Positions 34,525 to 45,310 of a DNA stretch of 64,000 nt are shown one piece after another; positions within the stretch are counted from its first letter, which is position 1, and every line of letters starts with the position of its first letter. The stretch spans positions 45,630 through 109,629 of the IMG/VR virus record IMGVR_UViG_3300046787_000129. One strand, written 5' to 3'. Source of the DNA: a virus. The notes below the pieces were generated by a model. The model was given only the letters and a program-made list of their open reading frames with translations. It searched no databases and was not told where the DNA came from. A program made the position numbers and the translations under genes.

Positions 34525-35457
34525 ATGGCTTCATTTAAGAAGACTCTAATCGCTACTGCATCGGCAGTGGCACTTGTAACAACCGCTCTAATCGCAGCAC
34601 CTGCAAACGCTGCAGTGTCAACCGCTCTAACTGTTGCTGGCTCAGCTGCAACTGGCGGAACCACTGAGGCAACCGCAATTGCCCTACCAGTTCCTGCAGA
34701 TAACTCTGTAGACACCGTAGACACTCTAGACGTTGCTCTATCTGGCATCACCGCTGGAGAGGCCGTAGCCGTTGTTGCTACTGACGCAACCCTAGTTGCT
34801 GCTGGCACCACTGGTGCAATTACTGTAACCACTGGAGCATCTACTCTAAACATTGCAACTGGTACTGGTACCACTGCAGGCTTCCGAGTATATACTAAGA
34901 CTACTAAGGTTGGAAAGGTTGTTGTTACCGTTGGTGCTGCAACTCCAGTAACCTACTATGTCAAGGGTACTGCTGGTGCACTTAACGCTATCGCATTGAC
35001 TGCTCCTACTGCTGCTCTAGGAACCACAGCTAAGGTTACTGCTACTGGTACTGACGTATTCGGTAACGTAGTTTCTGGTGCAACTGTTGCCCTTCAGGTA
35101 ATCAGCGGTTCAGCAACCAACACCTACTCACTGACCACCACTGCTGACGGTACTGCCGTTAAGGAGCTAACTGGTCTATCGGTAGACTCATATGACCTAC
35201 TTGCAACTGCTACCGTAGCTGCACAGGTAACTGGTCTTGCAAAGCCAGTTGGCTTTGTTAAGGGTCAGCTAAAGGTTGTAGACCTGTCAGCACTTGCTGC
35301 TGGTAAGGATGCAGAGCTTGCTGTTGCTATCGCAACCATCGCAGACCTAAAGGCACAGATTGTCGCCCTAAAGGCTGCAGAAATCGCCAAGTACAACGCT
35401 CTTGCTACTCGTTGGAACAAGGCACACCCAGCTAAGAAGATTGCTCTACGCAAGTAA
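34525..35457 (+). CDS. Exported Ala/Thr-rich protein with signal peptide
   Basis: A 310-residue protein behind a very good ribosome site (AAAAGGAGAGAAAC). It starts with a basic N-region (MASFKKT), a hydrophobic core and an AxA-type cleavage site (APANAA) near residue 30, so it is predicted to be secreted. The mature part is rich in Ala, Thr, Val and Gly with Ig-like beta repeats (residues about 150-250, including TATGTDVFGNVVSGATVAL), and ends in a helical, basic tail (near 265-310). Biased codon use suggests high expression. No enzyme motif is seen. It may coat the infected cell or act as an adhesin-like or virion-associated protein. Confidence 0.75.
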   Translation: MASFKKTLIATASAVALVTTALIAAPANAAVSTALTVAGSAATGGTTEATAIALPVPADNSVDTVDTLDVALSGITAGEAVAVVATDATLVAAGTTGAITVTTGASTLNIATGTGTTAGFRVYTKTTKVGKVVVTVGAATPVTYYVKGTAGALNAIALTAPTAALGTTAKVTATGTDVFGNVVSGATVALQVISGSATNTYSLTTTADGTAVKELTGLSVDSYDLLATATVAAQVTGLAKPVGFVKGQLKVVDLSALAAGKDAELAVAIATIADLKAQIVALKAAEIAKYNALATRWNKAHPAKKIALRK

Positions 35458-39029: not shown

Positions 39030-39060
39030 GGGGTCTACCTTTCGGGGTAGGCCCCTTTTT
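39030..39060 (+). terminator. Terminator after the nrd operon
   Basis: GGGGTCTACC (39030-39039) pairs with GGTAGGCCCC (39046-39055), with a short loop and a TTTTT run. This is a canonical intrinsic terminator. Confidence 0.92.
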
Positions 39061-39077
39061 GACGCCTAACAATATAG

Positions 39078-39083
39078 TATAAT
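39078..39083 (+). promoter_or_regulatory. -10 element (TATAAT) for the exported surface gene
   Basis: A perfect TATAAT at 39078-39083 lies upstream of the AAGGAGG ribosome site (39108-39114). TTGACG at 39059-39064 overlaps the T run of the terminator but is only 13 bases away from this hexamer, or 18 from TAGTAT at 39083, so the -35 assignment is uncertain. Confidence 0.55.
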
Positions 39084-39119
39084 AGTATTACTAGACATCC
39101 AAAACCCAAGGAGGATGAC

Positions 39120-41108
39120 ATTAATAAATTATTTAGGTTCAACCTGGCAGTATCAATAGCCTTCGGATCATTATTTTTTGCTACTCCAGCCATAGCCGTA
39201 GAGTCAACTTTAGAAGAGGCCCAGGCAGCCTTAGTCGTCGCAGAGCAGTCAGCATCAGACGCAACAGCTGCATTCTATACAGCAGCAGACAGTGCCACTG
39301 CAGCTGCCACAGCCAGAGACAATGCTGTAACTGCGTATGATCAGGCGGTAGCGGCCTGGGAGGCAACAAAAGTCACTCACCCAGGAACAACTTCAACTAG
39401 TACTCAGAACGTTGTTCAGAATGGCACCTTTGATAGTGCTTCTAACTGGACAAACGTCGTGGCAAGCAACACAGTTTATACTGGTGGTGCCAACCCTATC
39501 ATTTACAATGGAGCCCTAAAGGGATCATACACTGCTGGATACTATATTCAACAGACTGGGGTCTTCCCAAGTCCAACTAGACAAGTAACCTTTTCTGTAG
39601 ACGTTTGGAATTACGATACAAACGAGGGGAATCGAATAAACAACCCAGACTACTATCGCATTGAGTTCCGCACCTATAATGCTGCAGGTGCAAGACTAAA
39701 CTATTACAACATTGAGTGGTCTCAGTGGCATGATCTGATGACCAGATCTGCATCCTATACACTATCTGACGATGCTGTAAGGTGGGACATAGGCTTTAGA
39801 ATGGCTGACGCTGGATACTGGGCTGGAGCATTTGGTCCAGTAATCGACAACGTTCGTCTGATTGCAACGATGGGAACCACAACCCCAGAAACATATACTT
39901 ATGGTGAACCAGAAACAGCTGCAAAGGATTCAGCATATCAAGACTTCATTTCTGCACAGTCAGCATCAAGCTTAGCAGACTTAGCAAGAAGTTCGGCACA
40001 GACCGCTTTGGACACTGCAACAGCAGAAGTTTCTAGACTTACTCAGCTAGTCTACAGCCTTACCCCTGTTCCAGTAATCACTCCACCAGCCGCAGGGGAT
40101 TATTCTGCAGGTGAAGGTGGAACTATAGAGCTAACTGCTCCAGCAGGAAAGAAATTTTCTACCGTAACAGCCTGGTATGGATCACCTACAGACGTAGCTT
40201 GTGGAGGTGACGTATCTGCTCAGGTTAGCCAGATAATAAACGGGGCAACCTCTGTAATAGTTAATGCAGACAACTCTCTAGGAGATACTTGTGGAGGAGT
40301 CGTAAAGGTATTAACCCTAAGTAACCTAACATATACAGACATCCCTGCAACATCGGTTGACACTACTGATCCAGTCGTTCCACCAGTAGTCACCCCACCA
40401 GTAATTGAGCCCCAGCCCCAACCACAGCCAATTCCACTTCCAGTAGTTCCGTCACCACCAGCAGAAACTCCTGTTATAATAGAACCAACACCTACCCCTA
40501 CAGAGGAGCCAACAGTTGAGCCAACACCAGCCCCAACAGTGGATCCCACCCCAACCCCTACACCTACAGAAGAGCCAGCACCTGCACCTACGCAGAGCCA
40601 GGAACCTACTGAAGAGCCAACAGAGAATGTCGTACAGCCGTTACCAGAACCAGAGCCGTCAGCAACCACAGAAGTACAACCAGAACCTGAGCTATCTGTA
40701 GAAGAAGCGGTAGCTGAAATAGCTATCTTATCAGAGATAGTTCCAGAGAAGTTGACAGACGCACAAGCAGAAGAGCTAAAGGATGCGGCCATTACCGTAT
40801 TGGACACAGCGGTTCAAGGATCAGCAGAGTATAACCAAGCACTAGAGGCCCTTGCTATTGTTGCTGAGGCAGACGACGTCGAGCTACCAGAAGAGCTAGC
40901 AGCTATTCCAGGTGCGGCAGCAGTCCTAGATGCCTTAAATAATCTAGGTAACATCGGTGCTGACATGAGCCCAAAGCAGCGTGAAGAGTCTGAAAAAATT
41001 GTTGTATCTGCCATTGTTGTTGGACAAGTTGCTCAGATGGCAACAGCGGCAGCTGCTTCGGCAGCGGTAAGTTCAAGTGGTTCATCAGGACCAAGAAGGA
41101 GAAACTAA
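39120..41108 (+). CDS. Exported Pro/Thr/Glu-rich surface protein, apparent ATT start
   Basis: The frame gives 662 residues if read from ATT 39120, five bases after a perfect AAGGAGG. No ATG, GTG or TTG exists in frame between the upstream stop and residue 1. This start is chosen because it yields a textbook signal peptide (NKLFRFNLAVSIAF, then ATPAIAVES). Next come an Ala-rich helix (about 33-80), a jelly-roll-like domain (about 95-240, NVVQNGTFDSASNW and PVIDNVRL) resembling carbohydrate-binding modules, a second helix, a long Pro/Thr/Glu stalk (about 415-525, PTPTEEP repeats) and an Ala/Ser-rich C-terminus ending SGPRRRN. It looks like a stalked surface adhesin. A frame-shifting sequence error near the start is the alternative explanation. 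Confidence 0.7.
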   Translation: MNKLFRFNLAVSIAFGSLFFATPAIAVESTLEEAQAALVVAEQSASDATAAFYTAADSATAAATARDNAVTAYDQAVAAWEATKVTHPGTTSTSTQNVVQNGTFDSASNWTNVVASNTVYTGGANPIIYNGALKGSYTAGYYIQQTGVFPSPTRQVTFSVDVWNYDTNEGNRINNPDYYRIEFRTYNAAGARLNYYNIEWSQWHDLMTRSASYTLSDDAVRWDIGFRMADAGYWAGAFGPVIDNVRLIATMGTTTPETYTYGEPETAAKDSAYQDFISAQSASSLADLARSSAQTALDTATAEVSRLTQLVYSLTPVPVITPPAAGDYSAGEGGTIELTAPAGKKFSTVTAWYGSPTDVACGGDVSAQVSQIINGATSVIVNADNSLGDTCGGVVKVLTLSNLTYTDIPATSVDTTDPVVPPVVTPPVIEPQPQPQPIPLPVVPSPPAETPVIIEPTPTPTEEPTVEPTPAPTVDPTPTPTPTEEPAPAPTQSQEPTEEPTENVVQPLPEPEPSATTEVQPEPELSVEEAVAEIAILSEIVPEKLTDAQAEELKDAAITVLDTAVQGSAEYNQALEALAIVAEADDVELPEELAAIPGAAAVLDALNNLGNIGADMSPKQREESEKIVVSAIVVGQVAQMATAAAASAAVSSSGSSGPRRRN

Positions 41109-41296
41109 TGAAGAAAATTCTAGACGGAGTTACTAATCTAGTTAGAGATATACTCGACCAGGCCTGGACCCTTGTTGGTCTTGCAATTGGTTGGCTAGTT
41201 TTGGAGGGCAGTGCAAAGACTGTAACCGCAAACCTAGTTATAGGAACTCTACTAATATGGATAGTAACCTATCGTATTCGTAATCCAAAAGAGTAG
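41108..41296 (+). CDS. Small membrane protein (holin candidate)
   Basis: A 62-residue protein with two predicted membrane helices (WTLVGLAIGWLVLEG, near 20-35, and LVIGTLLIWIVTYRI, near 43-57) and charged ends. It is coupled to the exported protein by TAATG. Size and topology suit a class II holin, but the endolysin gene is 3 kb away, so another membrane role is possible. Confidence 0.55.
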   Translation: MKKILDGVTNLVRDILDQAWTLVGLAIGWLVLEGSAKTVTANLVIGTLLIWIVTYRIRNPKE

Positions 41297-41297
41297 T

Positions 41298-41303
41298 TAT
41301 AAT
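41298..41303 (+). promoter_or_regulatory. Leaderless-type -10 (TATAAT) for the lipoprotein gene
   Basis: TATAAT ends six bases before the ATG at 41310. There is no Shine-Dalgarno sequence in the gap, so the transcript is predicted to begin at the start codon. Confidence 0.65.
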
Positions 41304-41309
41304 AGTAAC

Positions 41310-41585
41310 ATGAAAAAAACCCTAATTTCATCAGTTCTACTTGTCGCAACCTTGTCACTATCTGGTTGCGGATGGAGCGGTTATTACCGTTATCCATGCC
41401 AAGATCCAGTGAACTGGAATGCAACAGAGTGTAAGCCACCTATCTGCACGGCCAATGGATGGTGTTCACCAGACCTTCTAGGGTTTGATCCAAATGCACC
41501 TGTAGAGACCGTAGCTCCTACAGACCCTACAGTCGTTGATGAGACAGTTGTAGATACTACCACAGGAGAAGAAACCAATGGCTAA
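41310..41585 (+). CDS. Phage-encoded lipoprotein
   Basis: A 91-residue protein with a lipoprotein signal peptide: MKKT, a hydrophobic core and the lipobox LSGC near residue 20. The mature part has Cys and Trp residues (YYRYPCQDPVNWNATECKPP then ICTANGWC) and an acidic, Thr-rich tail. From memory, a YPCQDP..W...EC.PP.C pattern recurs in small lipoproteins of marine and freshwater phages next to a two-helix membrane protein, as here; this should be verified. It overlaps the next gene by eight bases. It may act as an exclusion factor or membrane-associated virion protein. Confidence 0.7.
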   Translation: MKKTLISSVLLVATLSLSGCGWSGYYRYPCQDPVNWNATECKPPICTANGWCSPDLLGFDPNAPVETVAPTDPTVVDETVVDTTTGEETNG

Positions 41586-41859
41586 GGAAAAATATACGCC
41601 ACAAGACCTAGATGCTAGACTGAAGTTTACCATTGGTATTACTTTAGGAGCAGTTCTATTTGTAACTGTTATAGCAATCCTTTATGGTCTTATCTTTGTC
41701 ACACAGCCTATTGGTGCTCAGGCAGAGAACGATAAGATGTTCTTCAACGTTCTATCAAGCATTGCTACGTTCATCACTGGTGCACTTGCAGGACTAATGG
41801 TTGGTGCCAAGGGCCAAGACGGAGCATCGGCAGTTACAGAAGAGCCAACAGAGTTCTAA
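41578..41859 (+). CDS. Two-helix membrane protein paired with lipoprotein
   Basis: A 93-residue protein with membrane helices at about 18-45 (FTIGITLGAVLFVTVIAILY) and 62-80 (SIATFITGALAGLMVGAKG), separated by VTQPIGAQAEND. It overlaps the lipoprotein gene by eight bases. It could be a holin or a partner of the lipoprotein. The conserved pairing, if real, favours a joint envelope function. Confidence 0.6.
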   Translation: MAKEKYTPQDLDARLKFTIGITLGAVLFVTVIAILYGLIFVTQPIGAQAENDKMFFNVLSSIATFITGALAGLMVGAKGQDGASAVTEEPTEF

Positions 41860-41876
41860 AAACTTTTTAAAAACAC

Positions 41877-41905
41877 TTGACAACCCTTTCTAGGAACCGT
41901 ATACT
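41877..41905 (+). promoter_or_regulatory. Consensus promoter TTGACA-17-TATACT
   Basis: TTGACA at 41877-41882 and TATACT at 41900-41905 are 17 bases apart. The start site would lie near 41912, followed by AGAGGG and the TTG at 41935. Confidence 0.85.
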
Positions 41906-41934
41906 TGATATACAACCTAGAGAGGGTTTTCAAA

Positions 41935-42126
41935 TTGAGTGAAGATATTATTATTCTAGACAAAGAAGAAGTCTGGAAGTGGCTAGATATCGGTATTGCC
42001 AATGGCTGGATATCAGAGCCTTTCTGCTATACGCATGATGGCGATCCATACATGACAGAAGAAGAAGAAAAAGAATGGGAAGACGGCGGAGATCCGTGTG
42101 CCCCAGTAATCAAAGTTTTAGTATAG
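41935..42126 (+). CDS. Small acidic protein
   Basis: A 63-residue, strongly acidic protein (a run of Glu and Asp near residues 40-52). The TTG at 41935 is chosen because AGAGGG lies eight bases upstream; an in-frame codon at 41905 lies inside the -10 box. No motif is recognised. It is the first gene behind a consensus promoter and just before the subtilase, so it may be expressed early. An acidic small protein could be a DNA mimic, which is speculative. Confidence 0.55.
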   Translation: MSEDIIILDKEEVWKWLDIGIANGWISEPFCYTHDGDPYMTEEEEKEWEDGGDPCAPVIKVLV

Positions 42127-42127
42127 G

Positions 42128-43006
42128 ATGGGTATGAAGAAGAGTCTTGCAATTGCCACTGGTATCGTACTGCTATCAGCAATCACAGCCCCAGTACAGG
42201 CTGCAGAAAAGCCAACGGTAGCAATTATCGATAGCGGATTCAATACATCACTAATCAATAACGTAGTTGCAGAGGTATGTATTGTAAAGCTTACATATGG
42301 ATGTAACAACGGAAAGCTATTTGATGATTCAGTAGGCTCTACTGGAACCAGCATTCCAATTCTAAAGAACTGGAAGTCAGAATGGGACCATGGAACCAAG
42401 ATGGCTGGTGTAGTTAACCAAGTAAATCCAGATGCAAATGTATTGCTGATTCGAAATGCACTTGTGTTAAAGTCTGGTGCAGTTAATATGGGTGGGGAAA
42501 TTGAATTTGGCCTTGCTCTTGACTGGGTAATTGCAAACAAGCAGAAGTACAACATTCAGGCTGTTTCATTTTCTCGTGGATCAAACGTTAAGACAAAGAC
42601 TGGCGTATGTCCAATTGAAAAGGGGTTGCAGTCTAAGATTGTAAGCCTACAGTCTGCAGGAGTTCCAACGATTATTGCTGCAGGAAATGACAGGGACAAG
42701 GTTAACGTTAGTTATCCTGCTTGTATTCCAGAGGCAGTAGCTATTGGTGGCATCTTCTCTGCTAGCTACACTCCAAAGGTGTGGTCATCATATTATAAGA
42801 CGCTAGGAACAAACGACGGTGTTGCTCTAGACTTCTTTGCCTATGGTAACTTCAAGACCCCTGCTGGTCCTGTAGCAGAGTCTACATCATCTTCAGCAGC
42901 TGCATTTGCAGGGTACTGGAGTAAGGTCTCAAATGGAAATTACTTTGAAACTTATGAAAAACTTTCAAAAAGTACTAGTAATAAATTCATCAATGTGCTA
43001 AACTAG
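42128..43006 (+). CDS. Exported subtilisin-like serine protease
   Basis: A 292-residue S8-family protease with a signal peptide (MKKSLAIATGIVLLSAITAP, site near VQAAE). The triad is visible: Asp35 in VAIIDSGFN, His88 in EWDHGTKMAGV, and Ser254 or Ser255 in ESTSSSAAAFAG; Asn187 in IIAAGNDRD forms the oxyanion hole. The expected GTS-A-P around the Ser is degenerate. There is no long pro-domain. Starts at ATG 42128 or 42134 are both possible (AGG just upstream favours 42134). Exported subtilases are rare in phage genomes; it may process surface proteins or the neighbouring exported proteins. Confidence 0.85.
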   Translation: MGMKKSLAIATGIVLLSAITAPVQAAEKPTVAIIDSGFNTSLINNVVAEVCIVKLTYGCNNGKLFDDSVGSTGTSIPILKNWKSEWDHGTKMAGVVNQVNPDANVLLIRNALVLKSGAVNMGGEIEFGLALDWVIANKQKYNIQAVSFSRGSNVKTKTGVCPIEKGLQSKIVSLQSAGVPTIIAAGNDRDKVNVSYPACIPEAVAIGGIFSASYTPKVWSSYYKTLGTNDGVALDFFAYGNFKTPAGPVAESTSSSAAAFAGYWSKVSNGNYFETYEKLSKSTSNKFINVLN

Positions 43007-43031: not shown

Positions 43032-43463
43032 ATGAAAATATGCGTTAGATGTAATCAGGAAAAAGAATTAGAGCTTTTTGCCAAAGGTAAAAACTATAAA
43101 GATGGAAGACGTGGCACTTGTAAGCAATGTCATTCTAACTATATGGTGGAGTATTACAATAATAACGATGAACAAAGAAAAATTAAAAATAAGATAAACT
43201 CTGGCAAAGATTTTAATTGGAAAAGGCATCGTATTTCTAAAGAATTATTTGAAGAGATGGTTGCAAAATTTGATGGCAAGTGTTATACTTGTAATATAAA
43301 TAAGGCTACAAATATAGACCACGATCATTCTTGTTGTTCTGGACAAAGAAGTTGTGGTAAATGTATTCGTGGCATACTTTGTAGTCAGTGCAATACGGCT
43401 TTGGGATTAGTTAAAGATTCCAAAGAAGTATTACAAAATTTAATACAATATTTAAGCAATTAA
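43032..43463 (+). CDS. HNH endonuclease, endonuclease VII type
   Basis: A 143-residue zinc-binding nuclease. The core is CYTCNINKATNIDHDHSC (about 90-107), then RGILCSQCNTALG (about 119-131), the recombination endonuclease VII pattern. The N-terminus has an extra zinc site (CVRCNQEKELELF, then CKQCHSNY). Base composition is much more AT-rich than in the neighbours, and it sits alone between the subtilase and a tRNA cluster, which suggests a mobile or homing nuclease. It could also resolve DNA branches. Confidence 0.85.
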   Translation: MKICVRCNQEKELELFAKGKNYKDGRRGTCKQCHSNYMVEYYNNNDEQRKIKNKINSGKDFNWKRHRISKELFEEMVAKFDGKCYTCNINKATNIDHDHSCCSGQRSCGKCIRGILCSQCNTALGLVKDSKEVLQNLIQYLSN

Positions 43464-44434: not shown

Positions 44435-45310
44435 ATGGCCAAGGCACAATTTCCAATTGACGGCAAACTCGGAAAAGATTTTAAAGTCACCTCACTAATG
44501 GGTTATAGAATTCACCCAGTTAAAAAAGTAAAGAAGCACCACAACGGTACAGACATCTGGTCTCCACATGAGCCATGCTGGATCGAAGCTCCATATGACT
44601 GTGTAGTCTTGGAGGCAAAGAAGTCAACTGCACCTGGCGGTGGCTTTGGTAACTATGTAGTTATCCTAATGAAGATCAATGGCAAGTTCTATACTTCGCT
44701 ATTTGCACACATGCAGGATGGCTCTATCAAGGTTAAGAAGGGTCAGAAGATCCCTGCAGGAACTCCACTTGGTAAGATGGGCACTACTGGTATGTCTACT
44801 GGTAAGCACCTCCACTGGGAGCTTCGTCTTGGAAAGGTTCACACCTGGAACGACACTGGCAAGGACTACATTGAGCCTATTGGCTTCTTCAAGGCTCTGA
44901 TTGCTATGGAGGCTTCTATTGCCTCTGCTCCAGTCCTTGGAAACGATACCGTAGTTGCACCAGCACCTACCCACAATGCAGCAACAGCTGCAAAGGTAGA
45001 GGCTGAACGCAAGGGTATTGCTCCAGCAGCTAAGCCTGCTGCTAAGCCTGTGGTTAAGCCAGTTGCAAAACCAGCAGCTGTAGCAAAGCCAGTAGCTGTT
45101 GCCTCTGCAAAGCCTGCCCTAAAGGGAGAGCTTAAGCTAGGAACAAAGAATGGTCTTGTAACTTACCTACAGAAGTCTCTAAAGGTGACTGGAGATGTTG
45201 CTGGAACCTTTGGGCCAAATACAGCGAAGGCAGTGTCAGCACTACAGAAGGCTAATGGGCTGAAGGCTGATGGAGTTGTTGGTCCACTAACTTGGAGTAA
45301 GATTAAATAA
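44435..45310 (+). CDS. Endolysin: M23 peptidase with peptidoglycan-binding domain
   Basis: A 291-residue cell-wall hydrolase. Residues about 20-150 form the M23 zinc metallopeptidase: HHNGTDIW (His and Asp ligands, near 38-45) and GKHLHWELRLG (near 128) carry the ligands and catalytic His. A flexible Ala-Lys-Pro repeat linker follows (about 190-230), then a C-terminal peptidoglycan-binding domain (VTYLQKSLKVTGDVAGTFGP, near 245-265; VGPLTWSKIK). It has no signal peptide, so a holin must release it. It has a strong ribosome site (AGAAGGAGGAAATC). It cuts peptide cross-links; the exact bond cannot be read from sequence. Confidence 0.93.
   Translation: MAKAQFPIDGKLGKDFKVTSLMGYRIHPVKKVKKHHNGTDIWSPHEPCWIEAPYDCVVLEAKKSTAPGGGFGNYVVILMKINGKFYTSLFAHMQDGSIKVKKGQKIPAGTPLGKMGTTGMSTGKHLHWELRLGKVHTWNDTGKDYIEPIGFFKALIAMEASIASAPVLGNDTVVAPAPTHNAATAAKVEAERKGIAPAAKPAAKPVVKPVAKPAAVAKPVAVASAKPALKGELKLGTKNGLVTYLQKSLKVTGDVAGTFGPNTAKAVSALQKANGLKADGVVGPLTWSKIK

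Follow-up and report, generated by a model that had tools for sequence, protein, structure and literature searches.

The window analyzed here is a stretch of 64,000 nucleotides corresponding to bases 45630–109629 of the 109,629-bp IMG/VR virus record IMGVR_UViG_3300046787_000129, and our subject is a block of six of its genes, called A to F, with the ribonucleotide reductase genes on one side and a tRNA cluster on the other. A WhiB-like gene is present in the record, and the terminase has its best matches in Streptomyces phages (~54% identity); both point to an actinobacterial host, and such phages probably prey on the actinobacteria that are abundant in lakes. A sequence-only reading of the window had described five exported or membrane proteins here, and all of them are present where it placed them: A has a signal peptide, a carbohydrate-binding-like head (a β-sandwich), and a P/T/E-rich stalk; B and D are two-helix membrane proteins, with two hydrophobic and two transmembrane (TM) helices, respectively; C is a lipoprotein with an LSGC lipobox; and F is an exported subtilase with a signal peptide and a PF00082 domain above cut-off. 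Absent from that reading were the C-terminal TM helix and basic tail of A, gene E, and the promoter preceding E. The features are as follows.

39030–39055, + strand: hairpin resembling an intrinsic terminator, between nrdB and A (11-pair stem, T-run; similar in loci L003 and L004)
39059–39088, + strand: promoter-like region upstream of A with TATAAT (sequence pattern)
39108–39114, + strand: Shine-Dalgarno sequence AAGGAGG before the ATT start of A
39120–41108, + strand: gene A (signal peptide, heads, stalk, C-terminal TM helix, RRR tail; ATT start)
40098–40340, + strand: segment of A of the SUEL or L-rhamnose-binding lectin type (profile against the Protein Data Bank [PDB]; weak Pfam SUEL_Lectin match)
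41108–41296, + strand: gene B, 62-aa two-helix membrane protein, beginning within the stop codon of A (overlap)
41310–41585, + strand: gene C, lipoprotein with conserved YRYPCQDPxNWxxxECxPPxCxxxGxCxxDL
41578–41859, + strand: gene D, two-TM protein of phrog_25359, holin candidate, overlapping C by 8 bases
41877–41905, + strand: near-consensus sigma-70 promoter TTGACA-N17-TATACT before E (11/12 match)
41935–42126, + strand: gene E, small cytosolic protein with the motif PFCYTHDGDPYMTEEEE, often preceding a gene for an exported protein
42128–43006, + strand: gene F, exported subtilase with intact catalytic residues
44435–45310, + strand: gene H, M23 peptidase with a peptidoglycan-binding domain, probable endolysin; M23 relatives adjoin A-B in L010–L013

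The clustering of the five exported or membrane proteins exceeds chance. By a crude heuristic, 9 of the 169 gene calls in the whole record are exported-like open reading frames, and B, C, D, and F are four of these; A was missed only because it lacks an ATG. The hypergeometric estimate for five of six neighboring genes being exported is ~1e-6, before correction for position.

Start Codon and Architecture of A

The reading frame of A offers no ATG, GTG, or TTG ahead of the signal peptide, and the ATT at 39120 stands five bases after AAGGAGG. This ATT is kept in seven relatives (L002–L005, L007, L009, and L014, the last with a weaker ribosome site). Among 50 further A genes, an ATT lies behind a Shine-Dalgarno sequence in 11, 10 of which have no ordinary start available; the same arrangement occurs in L108, L112, L123, and others, and other A genes apparently start at ATA or ATC. 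Judged from the sequence, the best-supported start of A is likely AUU, conserved in the clade. Non-standard start codons such as ATT, ATA, and ATC are restricted by initiation factor IF3.

The AlphaFold model of A is good only locally (mean pLDDT 67, pTM 0.32). It places, after the signal helix, two long helices (residues 31–82 and 263–314, mostly with pLDDT >90) that flank a β-sandwich (85–260), the whole forming a hairpin and head (31–314); a second β-domain (328–407), which is the SUEL-type lectin; a disordered P/T/E stalk (approximately 410–525); helices at 527–609; and the C-terminal helix at 618–650. Foldseek matched the β-sandwich to sugar-binding β-sandwiches (CBM11, CBM4, CBM16, and the Fbs family). 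The juxtamembrane domain that follows the stalk carries the motif GNIGADMSP..REE..EK, which is the conserved part of the protein across the members that could be aligned. Searches of A, B, and C singly against Pfam and PHROG gave nothing useful.

The lectin assignment of the second β-domain rests on its Foldseek matches to SUEL lectins (2jx9, TMt 0.66; 5h4s, root-mean-square deviation 2.6) and is supported independently by a sequence profile of the segment, which matched 5H4S (1.5e-26), CSL3 (8e-9), RemA (2e-8), and latrophilin 1 (1e-4) in the PDB. The domain thus resembles SUEL or L-rhamnose-binding lectins in profile and fold, and most members contain the YG and GDPCGG..KVL motifs. Pfam SUEL_Lectin gave weak matches in 10 of 12 members (best member, E-value 5e-4), and the curated PF02140 cut-off was not reached (13.4 bits for the window member vs. 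31.4). Animal SUEL members carry multiple conserved disulfides, whereas the A domain has at most two cysteines, and none in L009 and L014, the animal-type cysteines being missing; unlike known SUEL lectins, it also sits within a membrane-anchored phage protein. Some uncultured-phage entries of the viral structure library are named SUEL lectin or PA14 domain, so that databases already contain the SUEL domain itself.

The architecture persists while the head domains differ. Among the 65 complete genes found upstream of B in our first set of loci, all encode a basic tail at the C-terminal end. The C-terminal hydrophobic helix is found in 62, a start resembling a signal peptide in 57, and a Pro-rich stalk in 55. 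With these traits, A resembles a surface protein that binds glycans and is raised on a stalk. At the sensitivity used, the heads had no relative among other proteins of the same phage, and the idea that they are copies of tail-fiber domains was rejected for want of a match within the same genome. For the juxtamembrane domain, no relative was detected in a collection of bacterial and archaeal genomes, a search of limited sensitivity, and there is thus no sign of prophage carriage.

Gene Order and Linkage to Lysis Genes

Seeds from B and D each matched at least 590 stretches in IMG/VR (at least 600 for D, of which at least 590 encode relatives), and the best 80 loci were kept per seed; B served as a second seed because the D seed favors C-D. 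The resulting sets are best matches and not random samples, with near-identical contigs retained. In the D-seeded set (n = 81), C and D are adjacent in 80 loci, A and B in 66, and B and C in 60, and a CHAP endolysin (Pfam, 1e-11; PHROG endolysin, 1.9e-25) directly follows D in 60 and lies nearby in 4 more. In the B-seeded set (n = 80), a long A-like frame is found upstream of B in 69 loci (complete in 55), a contig edge in 6, and none in 5; a CHAP or M23 lysin lies within 4 kb in 59; and the neighbor of B is a holin-like gene in 44 loci, C-D in 11, and a lysin in 10. These counts support A-B-C-D as a recurrent assemblage, not random morons. The earlier proposal that the exported proteins act as a unit is partly supported: the pairs A-B, B-C, and C-D are recurrently adjacent, and the subtilase is probably outside; occurrence independent of the other genes was seen for F relative to A–D and not for A-B or C-D.

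After the CHAP gene, seven loci (L029, L030, L044, L047, L075, L080, and L089) encode a protein of ~175 aa (MTCIAAIIKDG...) that very weakly resembles proteasome subunits (Pfam, 0.11 in L030).

C has four conserved cysteines in its mature part. D belongs to a PHROG without assigned function; it qualifies as a holin candidate by being a small two-TM protein with the CHAP endolysin directly downstream in the 60 loci mentioned above, not in the window. In close relatives without D, the slot after B is occupied by a two-TM gene similar to the PHROG holin phrog_443 (1.4e-4 and 1.5e-5 in two members). The best PHROG of this holin-like protein is phrog_26427, which matches small two-TM proteins beside lysis genes and whose nuclease label is probably wrong. 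The gene order is M23-A-B-holin-like in L010–L013 and A-B-M23-holin-like in L008. A search of the rest of the window's record, run without a positive control, found no holin-like gene. Taken together, the endolysin and holin-like neighbors indicate that A-B-C-D belongs to or borders a lysis cassette.

A further gene of ~70 aa lies between B and C in about ten D-seeded loci (e.g., L017:4428–4646); it encodes a two-TM protein (VMTLVQTALGG...GGYFGAKGSKD) and is itself a holin candidate.

Linkage to the lysis module, together with exchangeable glycan-binding heads, would also fit a shield against readsorption, as Llp of T5 is thought to provide for its progeny: A, made late, would mask receptors on dying cells and debris and so spare progeny loss. 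We consider this improbable, given that, at the sensitivity used, the phage encodes nothing else related to the heads and that the tight linkage to a holin-like gene would be left unexplained.

GenBank record OQ999401, a metagenome assembly from Dishui Lake with a predicted actinobacterial host (PMC10611076), encodes a 944-aa A-like protein with a signal peptide, heads, and stalks, whose C-terminus matches the B profile (4e-4) and a 55-aa PHROG family (1.8e-5). On the strength of these matches, A and B are apparently fused in this phage, which is modest but independent evidence for the two acting as one. It also bears on whether A could be a virion protein, that is, an adhesive fiber whose export signals are misleading. 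Foldseek matched A weakly to tail proteins of the viral library, and L008 has a tail-fiber-like gene upstream, both of which point that way; the signal-peptide-like start (57/65), the C-terminal TM helix (62/65), and the close pairing and apparent fusion of A with the two-TM protein B make it very unlikely.

Among 50,697 annotated phage records, the D of the window finds only two, one being a lake metagenome assembly and the other coming from a spring, and its A and B find no match. In bacterial and archaeal genomes, D was found in one metagenome-assembled genome contig; this and the lack of a relative for the A juxtamembrane domain leave no host assignment from genomes. The idea of C-D as common in cyanophages was not borne out.

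Genes E and F

The promoter-like sites on both sides of A-B-C-D are conserved. All nine close loci have TATAAT ahead of A, and several A relatives have an extended −10 element (TGnTATAAT) and no good −35 match; TGnTATAAT occurs in 14 of 31 loci of the holin type versus 23 of 1100 random windows. The 7 close loci all match the promoter of E at 10 or more of 12 positions, as do 63 of 79 E loci versus 11 of 79 random windows. With this near-consensus promoter of its own, E-F is probably a separate unit, and a single operon for the five exported proteins is improbable; the sequence patterns probably define two transcription units, A-B-C-D and E-F.

E is a very conserved 73-aa gene ending at 42126, with its start codon best placed at 41935. 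F scores 35.4 bits against PF00082 (cut-off 21.8), and its residues D35, H88, N187, and S254 are invariant across 43 aligned sequences, as expected for the peptidase S8 (subtilase) family. A single-sequence scan of viral contigs found no relatives of F, and these surfaced only via neighborhoods. In the first set of loci, wherever a gene of at least 100 aa follows E, it has a signal-peptide-like start; about half of these genes encode subtilases, two encode HExxH proteins, and the remainder encode other exported proteins. The E-seeded loci (n = 77, including several near-copy contigs) have in this slot a subtilase in 19, an HExxH protease in 13, another exported protein in 8, a non-exported protein in 14, and no such gene in 23. 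Most of the HExxH proteins display the downstream E(G) motif seen in gluzincins. Unlike the usual S8 peptidases, F is small, phage-encoded, and set in a slot shared with unrelated exported proteases, which suggests that protease export itself is selected. F is found with or without A-B-C-D alongside.

Other genes flank the block. Immediately after F and ahead of the tRNA cluster lies an Endonuclease VII-type gene (window 43032–43463). Between TerL and nrdI, window 34525–35457 encodes another protein with a signal peptide for export and a Pfam Big_1 match below cut-off that is present in 29 loci and, in L006, sits between nrdB and A.

The sequence-only reading had suggested that the proteins could act together at the host surface, for example as a stalked adhesin with a processing protease, and a lipoprotein and membrane partner serving exclusion. 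In such a system, the lectin heads of A would cover or occupy receptors, C and D would assist, and F would trim surface proteins. The surface-display architecture of A with its exchangeable heads, the retained catalytic residues of F and the strong promoter, and the existence of phage exclusion lipoproteins (Ltp family; PMC3952083) are compatible with this idea. On the other hand, endolysin and holin-like genes adjoin A-B-C-D, E-F is probably a separate unit, and A had no relatives in the bacterial and archaeal genome collection, within the limited sensitivity of that search. Nothing points to exclusion specifically; the neighborhood is one of lysis genes, and the A head resembles no other protein of the phage at the sensitivity used. 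We regard this role as unlikely.

A Proposed Role in Host Lysis

We favor a reading, to which we assign a probability of about one-half, in which A-B-C-D is the membrane or envelope part of a lysis cassette, with A-B as a glycan-binding factor, and E-F is a separate protease-export unit. Superinfection exclusion, a readsorption shield, and a virion fiber are less well supported by context than lysis. For A-B, we infer glycan binding, a membrane complex, its timing, and a role in lysis, as follows. Secreted A would be anchored in the cytoplasmic membrane by B and by its own C-terminal helix, and the stalk of A would extend the lectin or CBM heads through the wall, where these would attach to glycopolymers of the host surface. 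During lysis, the complex of A and B would weaken or displace the glycan layer, and the cell would burst upon endolysin action, the acting endolysin here probably being the M23 protein encoded at 44435. D would be a holin-like membrane protein cooperating with lipoprotein C. Exchange of the heads of A would follow changes in host glycans, with the membrane part retained, and E-F would export a protease from a neighboring unit under its own promoter.

Several observations weigh against the lysis reading. D matches no known holin family significantly in PHROG, Pfam, or NCBIfam, and the gene after D in the window is no endolysin, the M23 gene lying 2.6 kb downstream beyond tRNAs. The SUEL domain is confined to one clade of A proteins, that of the window. 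Moreover, A-B can be separated from C-D or encoded on the opposite strand, as in OQ999401, where the holin-like gene, C, and D are consecutive and the A-like protein is encoded elsewhere; lysis linkage is thus not obligate.

By analogy, A-B is most likely a membrane-anchored glycan-binding lysis factor comparable to LysZ of corynephages CL31 and Cog (McKitterick, Lyerly, and Bernhardt), for which an action on membrane-anchored glycopolymers in lysis has been proposed, according to the description in PMC13056207. As described there, LysZ is, like A, a lysis-linked actinophage membrane protein with a large extracellular part. However, LysZ has 177 aa and one TM helix in an N-in/C-out topology according to the same source, whereas A has ~660 aa, a signal peptide, a C-terminal TM helix (N-out), lectin/CBM heads, and a two-TM partner; given these differences in size and topology, A is not a LysZ. 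Mycobacteriophage LysF1a/LysF1b and the multi-TM cassettes of actinophages (PMC13056207, PMC9671378) likewise combine several small TM proteins with adjacent endolysin genes, but we found no sequence relation to them, and we saw neither a lectin-stalk protein nor a lipoprotein described in these papers. A membrane protein plus a small lipoprotein near lysis genes also recalls the spanins (Rz/Rz1). C-D was rejected as a spanin pair because the two genes overlap by only 8 bases and D has two TM helices without a long external part; in addition, A-B is unrelated to spanins, and an outer membrane is not expected in an actinobacterial host.

More tentatively, A-B may represent a new class of lysis factor in uncultured freshwater actinophages, in which a lectin anchored in the membrane, with a stalk and interchangeable glycan-binding heads, is paired with a two-TM protein of its own, and whose AUU start (elsewhere AUA or AUC) would limit translation to a late or low level. 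At least 590 IMG/VR stretches match B and at least 590 match D, yet the 50,697 annotated phage records searched almost lack them, and the papers we read do not describe how these lake phages open their hosts; A-B-C-D looks like a so far unstudied part of the cell-bursting machinery. Independently of this, the non-AUG start conserved in A offers a regulatory feature that can be checked. If the proposed role is true, lysis of these hosts requires dealing with surface glycans in addition to peptidoglycan, and the LysZ idea would be extended by recognizable lectin domains and become testable.

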